A stretch of DNA of 32,317 bases, from contig CAKKPG010000155.1 in NCBI GenBank assembly GCA_919901555.1, positions 1 to 32,317 on the forward strand, read 5' to 3'. The notes beneath the pieces were generated by a model. The model searched no databases. It saw nothing but the letters and a program-made list of their open reading frames with translations, and was not told the origin of the DNA. A program made the translations under genes and the position numbers. This document shows, one piece after another, positions 4,233 to 10,860 of the stretch. Positions within the stretch are counted from its first letter, which is position 1. Each line of letters opens with the position of its first letter. This stretch comes from Nitrospiria bacterium. GTDB lineage: Bacteria; Nitrospirota; UBA9217.

Positions 4233-4590
4233 TTAAACCGTAACTGCACCAGAAAAACATCGCTTTCTAACGGGGTAAATCTTGATCCACAGTGTTCTCA
4301 TTGACGGAAGCCCCTGCTTTGTGAGATAGGCATTCGATAAGCCGAGGGATTTCTCGGAGACCGTCAGCCTTTTTCCGGTGAAGGTGAAGCCGAGAAACGT
4401 ACTCGCTTCCGCCCTCACCACTTTGCTTTTGTCCCTGTTGACCTGCACCTTGAGTTTCTTTTCAAGGAACCGGCTAATGTTCTCCATCACGCGCTCGCCG
4501 CTGCGCTTTGACTTCACCAGAATGATGAGGTTGTCCAAAAGGATGTTGCTGAGCAGGGGCGAAAGCGGCCCGCCCTGCGGCACTCCTCTT
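4233..4590 (-). pseudogene. ltrA: group II intron reverse transcriptase/maturase fragment
   Basis: The minus-strand frame begins at GVPQGGPLSPLLSNILLDNL, a hallmark of LtrA-type reverse transcriptases, and continues through SGERVMENISRFLEKKLK and FLGFTFTGKRL. The N-terminal half is missing: an upstream in-frame stop and AT-rich sequence follow at about 4595. The segment that should carry the catalytic Y-A-D-D is also gone, because DNL runs straight into IILVKS near 4530, an in-frame loss of roughly 18 codons. The C-terminal domains end early. It is clearly a non-functional remnant belonging with the intron 3' end at 4059-4129. Confidence 0.85.
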
Positions 4591-4650: not shown

Positions 4651-4965
4651 ATGAAGCCTCTAAACTTCATCGGCACTAGCCTGGACGAACTCCGGAACTT
4701 CCCGGACGAAGCTCGCAAAGCGGCGGGATTTTAATTATATTCCGTTCAATGCGGACTCGAGCCGAACGACTGGAAGCCCATGTCCGGCATAGGTCGTGGG
4801 GTGAAAGAAATTCGCATACACGTCTTGGGGGAATGGCGCATCATCTATGTGGCGAAGTTCGTGGAAGCGGTGTATGTGCTTCATTCGTTTCAAAAGAAGA
4901 GCCGAAAAACGAATCAACACGATATTGAGTTAGCTCGCAAGCGATTCAAGCAAATTGGAGGGTAG
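4651..4965 (+). pseudogene. HigB/Gp49-like toxin, broken by a TAA stop
   Basis: Translated from the ATG at 4651, the frame reads as a phage-derived Gp49/HigB (RelE superfamily) toxin. It includes SLDELRNFPDEARKAAGF, WKPMSGIGRGVKEIRI, WRIIYVAKF, VYVLHSFQKKSRKT and DIELARKRFKQI. Codon 28 (4732-4734) is TAA, where relatives normally have glutamine (AGFQL); CAA to TAA is a single transition. The rest of the frame is intact to 4965 and would be about 104 aa. An internal ATG at 4780 could give only a 61-aa C-terminal piece lacking the first helices. The antitoxin gene follows after 4 bases. The toxin is probably inactivated; a sequencing error at one base is the main alternative. Confidence 0.75.
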
Positions 4966-4969
4966 CATT

Positions 4970-5254
4970 ATGAAAGAACCTATTGTCAAATCTTCCGGCA
5001 ACGTATTTCTCGATCTCGGTTTTCCCCCTGAGGAAGCCGCAATTCTTCAGATGCGTTCCGAAATCATGGTTGATCTTCGGAAGTTCATCAAGAACAAAAA
5101 ACTAACACAAGCAAAAGCGGCTGCGATTCTTGGTGTCAGTCAGTCCCGGGTCTCTGATCTCATAAGAGGAAAATGGGAGAAGTTCAGCTTGGAAATGCTC
5201 ATCGCTCTCGCAACAAAGGCTGGGATGCGTATCAGCCTTAAAAGGGCCGCATAG
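4970..5254 (+). CDS. HigA-like antitoxin, XRE-family helix-turn-helix
   Basis: This 94-aa protein has a C-terminal helix-turn-helix of the XRE/HTH_37 type: LTQAKAAAILGVSQSRVSDL at about residues 44-63, followed by the usual WEKFSLEMLIALA helix. It starts 4 bases after the toxin stop, with GGAGGGTAG overlapping the end of the toxin gene; the ATG at 4970 is preferred over an in-frame codon at 4955 for this reason. Antitoxins of this type neutralise the partner toxin and autorepress the operon. With the toxin gene broken, it may persist as an orphan regulator or a remnant. Confidence 0.85.
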   Translation: MKEPIVKSSGNVFLDLGFPPEEAAILQMRSEIMVDLRKFIKNKKLTQAKAAAILGVSQSRVSDLIRGKWEKFSLEMLIALATKAGMRISLKRAA

Positions 5255-5311: not shown

Positions 5312-6247
5312 TTACCGCAGTATCCCCTTTACGATAACATCCACCGCTTCTTCAGGCGAGAGGCCATGGGCCATGAGGGTCTCCATCTGGCGCTTGTCCA
5401 CGCTCCCGATCGCCGCCTCGTGGGTCACCTTGGCAAGGGGATTGTTTACCTGTACAATGGGGACCGCCTTTGCCACGGCGCCGTCCTTGACGATCTCCAT
5501 GCAGTCCACATGCCCCCGGGCGCCTGCGGCATTCCCCTCGGTGATGCCCGTCACCTCGGCCGTGGCCCTGTCTTCGATGGCGACGCGCGTTTTGATCAAT
5601 CCCCGGGCATTCCTGCCGGAAAGCACGACCCGGTCCCGTATCCGGACATCATCGACGGCGTGGCCGAAGACCCGCGCCGCCAGCTCTACCACGGAATCTT
5701 CACCAGCCTCCACGGTATAATCCAGCGCAAGCTTTCCCACCCTGCCGCTCGTTAAGGTAAAATCCGAGAAGAACCTGCCGTTCCTGTGGACCGTGACCCG
5801 GGATTTCGGTATAACTTCGATGCCGCCGAAGAGGCCGTGAAAATGAGTCTCGGAATAGCGCATCTCCGCCCCTTCGCCGATATCCACAACGGCGTCCATG
5901 AGATGCCGCACCTTCTCGGCTTTGGGGAATATGCAGTGCGCGATAAAATGAGCGGACGAGCCCGGCTCCAGCCGCACGTCCATCTTGATTTTCTGGGTCC
6001 CCTTTTTATGGAGCACGCCGAAGCACATATGCACCGGGTTTTTGACCTTCACGCCCGCCTTGACCGTGACGCGGGCGCTGATACCGCTCATGGTCTCTTT
6101 TGCTTTGACTTCGAGCCCCGGAATGTCCCGTGCGCTCAAGATCTTGTGTCCGCTTGCAACGAGATGGGCCGTGCCCGCGTCAGCGAGAACTCCCTTGTCC
6201 CCGCCGGCCTCGCCGAAGGCGCGCATAAGTTCATCAAGCTCAGACAT
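5312..6247 (-). CDS. smsB: SufB/D-like Fe-S assembly scaffold (SmsB type)
   Basis: This 311-aa protein belongs to the SufB/SufD family. It is shorter than E. coli SufB (about 495 aa) and matches the compact form found with a single SufC in many archaea and anaerobic bacteria, recently called SmsB. The C-terminal beta-helix core is recognisable: GRNARGLIKTRVAIED, ATAEVTGITEGN, ARGHVDCMEIV, then VTHEAAIGSVDKRQMETL and a final GLSPEEAVDVIVKGIL helix. It would act with the SmsC ATPase as a scaffold for building Fe-S clusters in the cytoplasm. The ATG at 6247 overlaps the smsC stop region (TATGTCTGA), indicating translational coupling; a GTG at 6262 is the alternative. No sufS, sufE or sufU lies nearby. 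Confidence 0.88.
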   Translation of the reverse strand: MSELDELMRAFGEAGGDKGVLADAGTAHLVASGHKILSARDIPGLEVKAKETMSGISARVTVKAGVKVKNPVHMCFGVLHKKGTQKIKMDVRLEPGSSAHFIAHCIFPKAEKVRHLMDAVVDIGEGAEMRYSETHFHGLFGGIEVIPKSRVTVHRNGRFFSDFTLTSGRVGKLALDYTVEAGEDSVVELAARVFGHAVDDVRIRDRVVLSGRNARGLIKTRVAIEDRATAEVTGITEGNAAGARGHVDCMEIVKDGAVAKAVPIVQVNNPLAKVTHEAAIGSVDKRQMETLMAHGLSPEEAVDVIVKGILR

Positions 6248-6965
6248 AGTGGCACTCCACACCGTCGCAGGTGAGACAATGGCGCGCCTTGTAGTGCTCC
6301 GCCACCCTTTCCGGAGTTCCGGAACAGACGATCTTTCCGTTGCAGAGCTGTGAAGCGCGGTCGGCGATCATCGCGATCTCTTCCCGGTGGGTGATGAGGA
6401 GCACCGACGCGCCCCGCTGCTTGAAGGCGTTGATCACGTTGATGATGTCCTGGGTGGAAAGCATGTCGATGCCCGAATCGGGCTCGTCGAGAACAGCAAG
6501 CCTGGGGTGCAAGGCAAGGACGGATGCAAGTTCGATCCTCTTCCGCTCGCCGCCGCTCAGGGATTTATCGACCATTCTGCCGAGGTAGAGCGCCGGGTTC
6601 AGTCCGACCAGCTCGAGAAACGGAGCAGGATCAGCGTCTCTGCTCTTCAGGGAAAGGTAATCACGCACGGAAATGCCTTCGAATCGGACCGGCTCCTGCC
6701 ACGCCATGGTGATGCCGAGCCGCGCCCGTTCGTGGATCTTCAAGTCGTTGATGCACGGACCATTGAAGCATATCTCGCCCGAGAGGGGGCAATATCCGTC
6801 GCACCCCATGATGAGATAGGCCAGGGTGCTCTTGCCGGTACCGTTCGTGCCCAGGAGCGCATGGACCTCCCCTGCTTCGATGGCAAGAGAAAGTCCCGAG
6901 AGAATGGGCAGACTCCCTTCCGGCCCGACTTCATAGGAAATTTGTTTGAGTTCAAGCAGAGGCAT
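6240..6965 (-). CDS. smsC: SufC-like Fe-S assembly ATPase (SmsC type)
   Basis: This 241-aa ABC ATPase of the SufC family has Walker A GTNGTGKST near residues 38-46, a Q-loop in MAWQEPVRF, signature LSGGERKRIEL, Walker B LAVLDEPDSGID and an H-loop in LLITHR. The D-E-P-D-S-G-I-D segment is characteristic of SufC rather than transport ATPases. It powers Fe-S cluster assembly on the SmsB scaffold encoded immediately downstream. An unusual feature is the C-terminus, which ends with cysteines at 230, 233 and 238 (C-x2-C-x4-C). The ribosome binding site is weak, and TACAAT lies about 15 bases upstream of the ATG, so the leader may be very short. Confidence 0.92.
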   Translation of the reverse strand: MPLLELKQISYEVGPEGSLPILSGLSLAIEAGEVHALLGTNGTGKSTLAYLIMGCDGYCPLSGEICFNGPCINDLKIHERARLGITMAWQEPVRFEGISVRDYLSLKSRDADPAPFLELVGLNPALYLGRMVDKSLSGGERKRIELASVLALHPRLAVLDEPDSGIDMLSTQDIINVINAFKQRGASVLLITHREEIAMIADRASQLCNGKIVCSGTPERVAEHYKARHCLTCDGVECHYV

Positions 6966-7080: not shown

Positions 7081-7118
7081 AAAAAACCGCTGCCTCCCGC
7101 GAAAAGGGGGGCAGCGGT
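7081..7118 (-). terminator. intrinsic terminator after the HesB-like gene
   Basis: On the minus strand ACCGCTGCC pairs with GGCAGCGGT around a loop of about 14 bases, followed directly by six T residues. It lies about 35 bases past the stop of the HesB-like selenoprotein gene and before smsC. It therefore probably separates the two transcription units. Confidence 0.75.
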
Positions 7119-7151: not shown

Positions 7152-7454
7152 TTAGCAGCTGCAGGAAGAACTACAGGAACTCTGTTGCATCCCCGTGAGC
7201 ACGAAGCCCTGTTGCTCCACAAAATCGATGCTCGTGTTCGCAAGCATCAGATTCGCCCGGTCCTCCAGGAAGACCCTGAGGCCGTCCTGCTCGAGCGTCG
7301 TATCGCCCTGCTGGGCGGCTTTGGCTATGTCCATAGCCAGAGAGGGGCTTCAGCCGCCGGGGACGAGGAATATTCTCACCCCGTCGCTGGGGGTGCCCTG
7401 CTGCTCAACGACTTCCTTGAACTTCTTTACTGCGCTGTCCGTCAAACTGACCAT
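7152..7454 (-). CDS. HesB/IscA-like selenoprotein with in-frame UGA (Sec35)
   Basis: The minus-strand frame starts at ATG 7454 behind AAGGAGGAAGTA and runs 100 codons to TAA at 7152. Its only interruption is a TGA at 7352-7350 (codon 35). Read as selenocysteine it gives VRIFLVPGGUSPSLAMDIA, where HesB/IscA-like proteins carry their first conserved cysteine (GGC-x-P-S-L). The remainder matches the family: DGLRVFLEDRANLMLANTSIDFVE and a cysteine-rich end with C94, C98 and C100. A hairpin meeting bacterial SECIS rules follows the UGA (separate entry). HesB-like selenoproteins are an established bacterial family. A-type proteins carry or transfer Fe-S clusters; the role of Sec here is unknown. 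Conventional gene calling reports only a 60-aa C-terminal fragment. SelA, SelB and SelC are not in the window, so the alternative of a nonsense mutation cannot be fully excluded. Confidence 0.85.
7306..7358 (-). promoter_or_regulatory. bacterial SECIS element of the HesB-like selenoprotein
   Basis: On the minus strand, ten bases after the TGA, TGGCTAT pairs perfectly with ATAGCCA around a GGAC tetraloop. The apical loop starts 17 bases after the UGA and carries G at its first two positions, within the published bSECIS constraints (about 16-37 bases, loop G). An outer stem, GGCGGCT with AGCCGCC, encloses the UGA itself. SelB-bound selenocysteinyl-tRNA would be recruited here. Confidence 0.8.
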
Positions 7455-7516
7455 TACTTCCTCCTTGCCATATTTTAAGAAGACCGAACCTCAGCTCAGA
7501 ATTCATAAAGTTATGT

Positions 7517-7599: not shown

Positions 7600-8673
7600 T
7601 TATACCGGTTCCGCCGTGGTTATACGGCAATACTCACTGCGATAATATTTTCTTTGAAAATACCTCGCTACGTTCACCAGCCCGATCAGGACCGGCACTT
7701 CCACCAACGGGCCGATGACCGTGGCAAAGGCAACGCCTGAATTGATGCCGAAGACCGCGACTGCCACGGCGATGGCAAGCTCAAAATCGTTCGATGCCGC
7801 CGTGAAGCTCAGGGTCGCTGATTTGGGATAATCGGCCCCGATCTTCTTTGCTATCCAGAAGGTGACCAGGAACATGAACACGAAATAGATGAAGAGCGGC
7901 GCCGCGATGCGCAGTACGTCAAAGGGCAGCTTGATGATGTACTCGCCCTTGAGCGAGAACATGACGACGATGGTGAACAGCAGCGAGATCAGCGTGACGG
8001 GGCTGATCTTCGGAATGAACGTCTCGTGATACCATTTTTTATCCTTGATCCTGATGAGCGTAAACCGGGTGATGACGCCCGCGAGGAACGGGATCCCAAG
8101 GTAAATAAACACGCTCTTGGCGATCTCGACGATCGAAACGTTCACCGCAACTCCGGAGAGTCCAAAGTAGGGCGGAAGAATAGTGACAAAGAACCAGGCG
8201 TAGACGGAATAGGTGAGCACTTGAAAGAGCGCGTTGAAGGCCACGAGCCCGGCCACGTACTCCGGGTCTCCGCAGGCGAGGTCGTTCCAGACCAGGACCA
8301 TGGCGATGCAGCGCGCAAGGCCCACGAGGATCACGCCGACCATATAGTCGGGATAGGAGTGGAGAAAGAGAATCGCCAGGACGAACATGACGATGGGACC
8401 GACGATCCAGTTCTGGATAAGGCTCACGGCCAAGATCCTCCAGTTGCGGAACACGGCCGGAAGCTCCTCGTACCTGACCTTGGCAAGGGGTGGATACATC
8501 ATGAGGATAAGGCCGATTGCGATGGGGATGTTCGTCGTCCCGACCTGGAAAGTATTGATGAACGTCTCGACGCCGGGAATGAAATACCCCAGCCCCACGC
8601 CGAACGCCATTGCCGTAAAGATCCAGAGCGTCAAAAATCGATCAATGAACGACAGACCTTTTCCGTTTGTCAC
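7600..8673 (-). CDS. acr3: ACR3-family arsenite efflux permease
   Basis: This 357-aa integral membrane protein has about ten hydrophobic helices and the ACR3 landmarks [46 protein letters not shown] (with the conserved Cys and the W-N-D segment) and [21 protein letters not shown]. It exports arsenite, and in some relatives antimonite, driven by the proton gradient. The GTG at 8673, behind GGGAGGAG, gives the normal ACR3 length. The frame is open further upstream, but that part overlaps arsR and has no family similarity. It is the last gene of the arsR-containing operon, 31 bases after arsR. Confidence 0.95.
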
Positions 8674-8704
8674 GCTGCTCCTCCCTTCCTTCCTGTCATG
8701 CTTT

Positions 8705-9112
8705 TTATGCGGGACGATGCCGCGACAGCGCTCCCGGCCCGCAGCATCTTTTTCCCTGCGCCTTGATTGAAATGACGGTTCCCTTCGAACCCTTTTTTTC
8801 CATGAAGGACGCGAGCCTCGTTCGATCCTCCCGGACCGCTTCCCGGGAGACACGCTCGCATACTGAAAGAAGCAGCATTCTCCTGAACAGGTCGTTATCG
8901 TTCAGACTGTAATGGGTCCACCTGCCCTGCTTCCGGTCTTTGAGGAACCCCGCCTCCTTCAGTGCACTCAGATGGAACGACACCTTCGGCTGGACCATGT
9001 CCAAGGCGGCCACAATGTCGCAGACGCACAGCTCGCCCTGTTCCAGCAGCTTCACGATCCTGAGCCTGGTCTCGTCGGACAGGGCCTTAAATATGGTCAC
9101 CAGTTCGTTCAT
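8705..9112 (-). CDS. arsR: ArsR-family metalloid-responsive repressor
   Basis: This 135-aa winged-helix repressor has the arsenite-binding signature ELCVCDIV at about residues 26-33, and a recognition-helix region [16 protein letters not shown] followed by GRWTHYSL in the wing. Arsenite binding to the C-V-C motif releases it from DNA. The ATG at 9112 aligns with the usual family N-terminus ([19 protein letters not shown]); an ATG at 9133 would add seven residues. The C-terminal tail contains CC and is longer than usual, possibly a further metalloid ligand. It lies between the thioredoxin-like gene and acr3, consistent with autoregulation of the operon. Confidence 0.93.
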
Positions 9113-9137
9113 ATTTTTTTCGCCCCCATTCACCCTT

Positions 9138-9383
9138 TCACCGATTCACACCCTGAATGAGCTCCTTTACCTTTTCCAAATTCGGAAGCGGCTTGCCGGA
9201 GTGCTTGATCTTCCCGTTCACGATAAGGCCGGGCGTGGATAAAATACCGTGCATGGCGATCTGGCCGATGTCCGTTATCTTCTCGATCTTCGCATCTATA
9301 CTAAGTTCCTTAACAGCAGTCTTCGCCAAGTCCTCCATTTTATGACAATTGGCGCAACCTGGTCCGAGCACTTTGATTTCCAT
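9138..9383 (-). CDS. small thioredoxin-fold redox protein (CxxC)
   Basis: This 81-aa protein is of the small redox-active disulfide/thioredoxin-like type. It has a C-A-N-C motif in LGPGCANCHKM (about residues 7-17), the cis-proline region LSTPGLIVNGKIKHSGKPLP and a final helix. Such proteins often sit in arsenic and permease operons, where they probably supply reducing equivalents. The ATG at 9383 overlaps the stop of the DUF2703 gene (TGATG), with GAGGAG upstream, so translation is coupled. Confidence 0.88.
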   Translation of the reverse strand: MEIKVLGPGCANCHKMEDLAKTAVKELSIDAKIEKITDIGQIAMHGILSTPGLIVNGKIKHSGKPLPNLEKVKELIQGVNR

Positions 9384-9859
9384 CACCGAGTTCTCCTCAA
9401 AGAATCATTTTTTGCGCTTCTAGGCAATATCTTCAGTATTGGTTTTCGCTGAGTTGTTTGAGGTGGTTTCACATCAAAGACCTGCGATGCGGCAACGAGT
9501 CCAGCCCTGACGATTAAATCAGCAGGGATCGTTTCATGGATCTCGTCGGCGTACTCAACAGTTCTGCATTCTGCGTCGCCGCACGTTTCACAGCATTTGC
9601 TTTGACCGGTTTTAGCCCCAAGCCATTCTTCAAGGGTTTTCCCGGCGATCAGGATCTTATTGGACTGCAGCACGTCCTTTTTGAAGCTCTCCGAATCGAT
9701 GGCTTTTTTAACCAGGCTGGCGATAACTCCGGATTGTTTGAGCAATTGGTTGAGTTCCTGTATGGCCTTGTCGACCTCCTGCTCCGTGGAGCCGCATCGG
9801 GGACACGTCTGTTTCTGTTCATCAAGCAGCCGTTGCCATTCAACAACAAGCGTCTTCAT
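9383..9859 (-). CDS. DUF2703 family cysteine-rich protein
   Basis: This 158-aa protein matches the DUF2703 pattern. It has an N-terminal KTLVVEWQRLLDE, a C-P-R-C motif near residues 19-22, the central ILIAGKTLEEWLGA, a C-C-E-T-C-G-D-A-E-C cluster near 89-98 and an ETIPADLIVRAGLVAA helix. The last 25 or so residues are basic and not typical of the family. Its biochemical function is unestablished; the cysteines and the operon position suggest metalloid or metal handling. It lies 13 bases after the permease gene and overlaps the next gene. Confidence 0.85.
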   Translation of the reverse strand: MKTLVVEWQRLLDEQKQTCPRCGSTEQEVDKAIQELNQLLKQSGVIASLVKKAIDSESFKKDVLQSNKILIAGKTLEEWLGAKTGQSKCCETCGDAECRTVEYADEIHETIPADLIVRAGLVAASQVFDVKPPQTTQRKPILKILPRSAKNDSLRRTR

Positions 9860-9872
9860 CTCCGCTCACCTC

Positions 9873-10826
9873 CTACATGATCGCGTTGAACAGGTAGCCA
9901 ACGCCGATGATCGTGACCGTCATGATCCCCACGAACACGGCGAGAAGCTTGATTTTCAGCACCTTCCGCAAAATGATCATCTCCGGGAGCGACAGGGCGG
10001 TCACGGCCATCATGAAAGCCAGCACCGTGCCCATGCTCATGCCCTTTTCCATCAGGGCATAAACGATCGGTATTACACCTGCTGCATTGGAATAGAGAGG
10101 CACGCCGAGCGCAACTGAGATCGGGACACCAAAGGGATTCTGCGGCCCGGCGTACCGGACCAGGAAATCCTCAGGCACATATCCGTGAATGAAGCCGCCG
10201 ATGCCGATGGCAATGATCACATACAACCATACCCGCTTGAGAATGTCCGCCGTGCTCCAACGGGCGGAGACAAGCCGCTCCTTGAACGTCTGCCTTGCGA
10301 TCTCCTGAGCAGCGCCGAGGGAATGGATCTTATAGACGTACTCCTCGACCCATTTTTCGAGCTTCAGCCTGCCGATGACCATTCCCGCAGCAATCGCTGC
10401 CAGAAGACCCGTCGCCATATAGATGACGGCGATCTTCCAGCCGAAGAGGCCCCAGAGGAGCACGAGAGCGACCTCGTTCACCATGGGTGATGAGATGAGG
10501 AAGGAAAAGGTCACGCCAAGCGGCACGCCGGCTTCGACAAAACCGATAAAGAGCGGGACCGCCGAACATGAACAGAACGGCGTGACCACGCCGAGGAGTG
10601 CGGCGAGAATGCTTCCTATAAACTCTTTTTTATGAGATAGGATGCGCTTGGTCCGTTCCGGCGGAAAGTAGCTGCGAATGATGGAAACGATGAAGATAAT
10701 AACGGAAAGGAGCAGAAATATCTTGATTGTATCGTAAATGAAGAAATTCAGCGCGTCGGCCAGCCGCGTTCCCTGCTCCAGACCAAAGAGGGCATACACG
10801 ACGTAGTGGGAAAAACCTTTCAACAT
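9873..10826 (-). CDS. DUF318/ArsP-like permease
   Basis: This 317-aa polytopic membrane protein of the DUF318 permease family (PF03773, which includes the organoarsenical exporter ArsP and SO_0444-type transporters) has about eight hydrophobic segments. The hallmark motif is TPFCSCSAVPLFIGFVEAGVPLG near residues 85-107, followed by SSPMVNEVAL. A related segment, GVPLYSNAAGVIPIV, sits in the C-terminal half, as in the family. The ATG at 10826 is chosen because GGAGG lies just upstream. It is the first gene of the arsenic operon. The substrate is probably an arsenical or another thiophilic metal species; this is inferred. Confidence 0.85.
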   Translation of the reverse strand: MLKGFSHYVVYALFGLEQGTRLADALNFFIYDTIKIFLLLSVIIFIVSIIRSYFPPERTKRILSHKKEFIGSILAALLGVVTPFCSCSAVPLFIGFVEAGVPLGVTFSFLISSPMVNEVALVLLWGLFGWKIAVIYMATGLLAAIAAGMVIGRLKLEKWVEEYVYKIHSLGAAQEIARQTFKERLVSARWSTADILKRVWLYVIIAIGIGGFIHGYVPEDFLVRYAGPQNPFGVPISVALGVPLYSNAAGVIPIVYALMEKGMSMGTVLAFMMAVTALSLPEMIILRKVLKIKLLAVFVGIMTVTIIGVGYLFNAIM

Positions 10827-10836
10827 CCCCGCCTCC

Positions 10837-10860
10837 ACATATAAACCATTTTTTATATAT
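10837..10860 (-). promoter_or_regulatory. AT-rich imperfect dyad upstream of the arsenic operon (possible ArsR operator)
   Basis: On the minus strand ATATATAAA and TTTATATGT form an 8-of-9 inverted repeat with a 6-base spacer, just upstream of the ribosome binding site of the first operon gene. ArsR-family operators are commonly AT-rich dyads overlapping the promoter. There is no direct evidence for binding. Confidence 0.35.

Follow-up and report, generated by a model that had tools for sequence, protein, structure and literature searches.

On comparative evidence, the minus-strand gene at positions 7152 to 7454 of the window (the whole stretch of DNA analysed, 32,317 nucleotides) is a genuine selenoprotein gene. 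Judged from sequence, its clade is a so far unlisted, shortened variant of the known HesB-like selenoproteins. The in-frame UGA at codon 35 is very probably decoded as selenocysteine (Sec), giving an A-type protein. The features of the gene, with the evidence for each, are:

7152..7454, minus strand: predicted A-type (IscA/HesB-like) selenoprotein gene, 100 aa, Sec at residue 35 (conserved UGA, PF01521)
7350..7352, minus strand: predicted Sec codon UGA, residue 35, at the position of IscA Cys35 (conservation, alignment)
7322..7339, minus strand: bacterial SECIS hairpin UGGCUAU-GGAC-AUAGCCA (codon invariance, compensatory G-C to A-U change)
7460..7465, minus strand: Shine-Dalgarno AGGAGG, 5 nt 5' of the ATG (sequence; equivalent sites in relatives)
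7155..7178, minus strand: C-terminal Cys tail, C93 and C98-S-C100, counterpart of the IscA CGC (sequence, alignment)
7081..7118, minus strand: intrinsic terminator, 9-bp outer stem and T-run, -23.5 kcal/mol (folding)

The in-frame UGA and its conservation

The original prediction gave the limits of the gene exactly. It runs from an ATG at 7454 to a TAA at 7154-7152, and the TGA at 7352-7350 is the sole in-frame interruption among its 100 codons. The frame was also said to be intact from a strong ribosome binding site to a terminator, and both signals are in place. The terminator at 7118-7081 was overlooked by the terminator scan because of its long loop, and folding then showed it. As predicted, an ordinary gene caller gives just a 60-aa ORF, starting at 7334.

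The UGA lies at the residue-35 codon in 12/12 same-family orthologues, the window gene included. Outside the window's own genome, an orthologue (63-79% identity) is present in 11 of 13 family genomes, in each case with TGA at the same codon; the two without a match are 74% complete. In another family, one genome (G049) has a 47% identical gene, again with TGA at this codon. No orthologue of the same family has Cys at the residue-35 position. Homologues do carry Cys there in the alignment, which bears out the claim that UGA stands in place of the first conserved Cys.

In terms of selection, pN/pS is 0.28 before the UGA and 0.34 after it (13 genes), and purifying selection after the UGA therefore nearly equals that before. 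Decay of the frame past the UGA, which would have spoken against a selenoprotein, is not seen in the relatives. It is thus extremely unlikely that the UGA is an ordinary stop, left in a recent pseudogene or separating a short peptide from an internally started 60-aa protein. The 60-aa ORF does have an ATG, and the assembly of this genome yielded neither selA nor selB, as described below. Nevertheless, every same-family orthologue has the UGA at the same codon, as do genes of other families, selection is purifying on both sides of it, the hairpin is nearly invariant, and a 60-aa product would be without the N-terminal part of the fold.

Across the phylum (396 genomes searched), the UGA form, followed by PSLAM or in a few cases PSLTM, occurs in at least seven families (f1, f5, f13, f15, f23, f26, f27). 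A tree computed without the Sec columns groups 24 Sec genes and 2 Cys genes (L097, L101) in one clade, with support of 100/100 within the sampled phylum. In total, the starred branches of the tree force three changes of state. The nested Cys genes read GGCCGPS, against GGU-[S/G/R]PS in the Sec genes. As read from these sequences, one Sec corresponds within the clade to a Cys-Cys pair, and Sec was replaced in two separate places. In its genome, L097 is accompanied by a Sec copy at a distance of about 2 kb. More distant Cys homologues in f20 read GGGCSPS or GGGCAPS and align without gaps. Because it used close-range patterns, a scan of contigs recovered close relatives only.

One genome (contig G245:C143) has Cys (CCGP) and Sec copies, L127 and L128, about 2 kb apart, and a weakened form of the hairpin persists in the Cys copy (GCT ATG GAT ATA GTC).

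The hairpin and the selenocysteine machinery

Published rules for bacterial SECIS elements (bSECIS; PMC13188914) ask for a loop of 3-9 nt, a stem of 4-16 bp, a G in the first two loop positions, a distance of 16-37 nt from the UGA and an MFE <= -7.5. Checked in this way, as the original prediction had proposed, the hairpin at 7339-7322 fits: a 7-bp stem, UGGCUAU/AUAGCCA, encloses a GGAC loop that starts 17 nt past the UGA. The MFE is -7.5 kcal/mol for the isolated hairpin, -8.7 for a 33-nt core and -9.8 for 42 nt.

We dropped any claim of significance from the window sequence alone, where the fold z is -0.98. Approximately 15% of random synonymous recodings produce a stem as good as the one in the window, and they do so often because Leu-Ala-Met-Asp-Ile-Ala is semi-palindromic. 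The predicted SECIS-like hairpin was accepted as real on comparative evidence, namely zero synonymous change and a paired G-C to A-U change.

Codons +5 to +9 after the UGA are GCT ATG GAC ATA GCC in the window gene. Among 23 UGA genes, whose proteins go down to about 47% identity, GCT at +5, ATG at +6 and GCC at +9 are invariant, GAC at +7 is kept in 22, and +8 is either ATA or GTA, a change that preserves a U-G pair. GCT is the rarest Ala codon in the window genes (48/626), yet it is found at +5 in 23/23; ATA is likewise the rarest Ile codon. Synonymous change at +5, +7, +8 and +9 is zero, with flanking sites mostly high (13 genes). Three sequences, L093, L103 and L104, have A-U in place of G-C as the second stem pair; both bases of the pair have changed, substituting Ala40 with Thr and Ala44 with Val. 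Stem pairing holds in 99.4% of cells, compared with 14-45% when the partner is slid. Since the compensatory change alters two amino acids, this hairpin makes an unusually clean evolutionary case for a bacterial SECIS in a coding region.

Other HesB-like selenoproteins were seen in two families. The f19 genomes (L027, L118, L119, L122-L126) have a different one, in which the motif reads GGGU-G-C-G-P-S-Y-G (U-x-C) and the UGA is followed by a conserved hairpin of its own, UCCUAU-GGA-AUAGGA. Those of f20 (L111-L117, L120, L121) have the motif GGGUSTSYGLD and a conserved hairpin, AUCCCCU-GGA-AGGGGAU, with a loop that begins about 38 nt past the UGA, just beyond the usual 16-37 nt.

As for the decoding machinery, the original prediction pointed to selA, selB, selC and selD in the same genome, of which selC and selD were found. 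The assembly, of an uncultured Nitrospirota (3.45 Mb, 220 contigs, 96.5% complete), has a tRNA-Sec (selC) with a UCA anticodon and a selD with its own UGA and a strong hairpin. An fdhA with UGA is present too; it encodes the canonical CARYUHSATVAGLA and has a GGUCU-loop hairpin. On the other hand, neither selA nor selB turned up in this 96.5% complete assembly. In relatives the two are adjacent, and each scores above cut-off in 11/13 other family genomes.

An assembly gap is the likely explanation for the missing pair. A simple gap at a contig end was considered and is not established, because the genes that flank selA/selB in relatives sit elsewhere in this assembly; synteny is lost, and those sites contain no selA/selB fragment. 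One such flanking gene lies close to tRNA-Sec on contig C7, in the form of broken repeats. At that site (L134, G000:C7:1600-5440) we observed repeated, chimeric fragments of an MFS transporter gene, which in relatives flanks selB. This fragment pattern is either a misassembly or a rearrangement.

Loss of SelA and SelB by the strain, with the gene a fresh relic of a former selenoprotein, would also account for the missing pair and for the displaced flanking genes. We consider this very unlikely: tRNA-Sec, UGA-selD and UGA-fdhA are all intact, the window gene has no excess of amino-acid change past the UGA, and in an assembly of 220 contigs two adjacent genes (about 4 kb) could drop out together.

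With Sec decoding in place, SelA would convert Ser-tRNA-Sec using selenophosphate supplied by SelD, and SelB would bind the hairpin right after the UGA and bring the Sec-tRNA. The UGA at codon 35 would then be read as Sec to yield the full-length A-type protein.

Neighbouring genes and possible function

The predicted position of the gene between Fe-S assembly and arsenic resistance genes is borne out, with the following genes downstream and upstream:

5312..6262, minus strand: sufB/smsB-like scaffold gene (PF01458, 67.7 bits)
6240..6965, minus strand: sufC-like ATPase, next gene downstream (TIGR01978, 161 bits, below cut-off 212.8)
7600..8853 (ORF as listed), minus strand: ACR3 arsenite efflux gene, upstream (TIGR00832, 454 bits)
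8705..9133, minus strand: ArsR-family regulator (NF033788, 100 bits)
9138..9386, minus strand: ArsE/MTH895-type thioredoxin-like protein (TIGR00412, 87 bits)
9383..9859, minus strand: DUF2703 protein (PF10865, 120.7 bits)
9873..10838, minus strand: ArsP-like permease (PF03773, 273 bits)

The true start of ACR3 is probably nearer 8655. The DUF2703 gene lies between the thioredoxin-like and permease genes of the ars cluster; L075 keeps it together with both of these genes, and L153 with the thioredoxin gene. Elsewhere in the window, a pair that looks from sequence like a RelE/HigB-type toxin and an HTH antitoxin is present at 4780-5254 (plus strand). A reverse transcriptase-like ORF fragment (PQGGPLSPLLSNILLD), perhaps a group II intron remnant, lies at 4233-4583 (minus strand).

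Profile searches were made with residue 35 treated as Cys. The protein matches Pfam Fe-S_biosyn (PF01521) at 39.2 bits, above the gathering cut-off of 26.3, and many A-type models match it, each below its own cut-off. An AlphaFold2 model built on 34 relatives has a pLDDT of 84.7 and best matches E. coli IscA (1r94; TM 0.73, Foldseek E 3e-7), with a C-terminal tail of low confidence. In an alignment with AQ_1857 (1nwb), the GGCS motif has its first conserved Cys opposite residue 35, and the C-terminal CGC lies opposite C98-S-C100. The ligand set is uncertain because the Cys tail is of low confidence in the model and variable, with SCCG ending some Sec members. A second A-type protein (L002, G000:C44:64394-64705) is encoded in the same genome, Cys-containing and with a Cys/Gly-rich tail.

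We infer that the protein is made, that selA and selB exist in the strain, and that Sec serves as a cluster or metal ligand rather than as a redox centre. The product would adopt the IscA-like fold with Sec35 in the place of Cys35, and Sec35 and the C98-S-C100 pair would presumably be ligands of an Fe-S cluster or iron. Such a protein would act beside the two-gene sufC-sufB system. The fold, the positions of the ligands and the adjoining sufC-sufB genes make a Sec-ligated Fe-S carrier the preferred reading, and a role of Sec35 as Fe-S ligand has a slightly better than even chance.

The arsenic genes offer the main rival to this reading. When ACR3, ArsR, thioredoxin, DUF2703 and ArsC are counted, 13/22 clade loci, in five families, have ars genes no more than 7.5 kb away, against 0/20 control stretches from the same genomes (Fisher P 2e-5, an optimistic value because the loci are related and the controls were picked by hand among known contigs). 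Of the 22 loci, one is a Cys form, one is a second copy within the same genome, and one carries both Sec and Cys copies. The small phosphatases among the genes counted have arsenate reductase as their best match, just below cut-off. Linkage that recurs in this way points to a role for the protein under arsenic or thiol stress.

Sec35 might accordingly be a redox or arsenic-binding selenol, paired with the C-terminal cysteines in an arsenic response and not engaged in Fe-S delivery. This accepts Sec decoding and differs in function alone. Besides the linkage itself, a Cys form placed directly after ACR3 (L146) and the vicinal CC pair of the clade's Cys forms speak for it. Against it, sufC-sufB adjoins the gene in the window and in 7 relatives, the fold and Cys positions match IscA, the 22 loci are phylogenetically non-independent, and co-regulation under stress would give the same picture. 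We regard the selenol function as possible, if rather unlikely, and keep the Sec-ligated Fe-S carrier as the preferred reading.

A broader proposal would join the two lines. A phylum-wide clade of Sec A-type proteins, with one Sec in place of vicinal Cys-Cys, may aid arsenic-stressed anaerobes by Fe-S supply or protection, or by As(III) sequestration, beside ars operons and a carrier-less, SMS-like SufCB. As a whole this is doubtful. The natural Sec and Cys-Cys forms, together with the arsenic-gene linkage, make the role of selenium in HesB-like proteins directly testable.

We found no paper in the open-licence literature that connects HesB selenoproteins with arsenic resistance, and none of relevance to Nitrospirota selenoproteins; this scope makes both weak evidence of novelty.

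Comparison with known systems

The published HesB-like selenoproteins have a UxGP motif (PMC13188914; Zhang et al. 2006, PMC1794560). With these proteins (TIGR01911, NF038090) the window clade shares a small A-type domain, Sec in the UxGP/first conserved Cys region, a UGA with a downstream SECIS, and the presence of Sec and Cys forms side by side. It differs in its motif, U-[S/G/R]-P-S, which is one residue shorter than UxGP.

The HesB/IscA-like identity given in the original prediction stands as regards PF01521 and the IscA fold, but the protein is below the curated cut-offs for HesB selenoproteins. It scores 15.1 bits with TIGR01911 (HesB_rel_seleno; cut-off 66.35), having USPS and not UxGP, and 44.9 bits with NF038090 (IscA_HesB_Se; cut-off 85). 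Swapping CSP for CCGP raises these scores to 23 and 53.5, respectively. The missing residue therefore counts as a genuine difference from those models, but it accounts for just part of the distance. Automatic annotation probably misses the whole clade, because the UGA splits its genes and their products score under the curated HesB/IscA cut-offs.

In the case of the A-type carriers IscA, SufA and ErpA (PMC2682760), the fold, the position of the first Cys and the C-terminal Cys-x-Cys are shared, and the TM of the window model to 1r94, 1s98, 2d2a and 1nwb is 0.66-0.73. The window protein is distinguished by Sec for Cys35, one residue deleted after Sec, CSC for CGC and an extra Cys93. Its score with TIGR00049 is 56, below the cut-off of 58.8.

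Lastly, the two-gene sufC-sufB unit is shared with the SMS or minimal SUF system (SmsCB; PMC12192291), and the scaffold is nearest SmsB, the best NCBIfam match of the window SufB being NF052511 (75.7 against a cut-off of 650). SmsCB of M. jannaschii was published without an A-type carrier (PMC12192291), whereas in the window an A-type gene stands beside the sufC-sufB pair.
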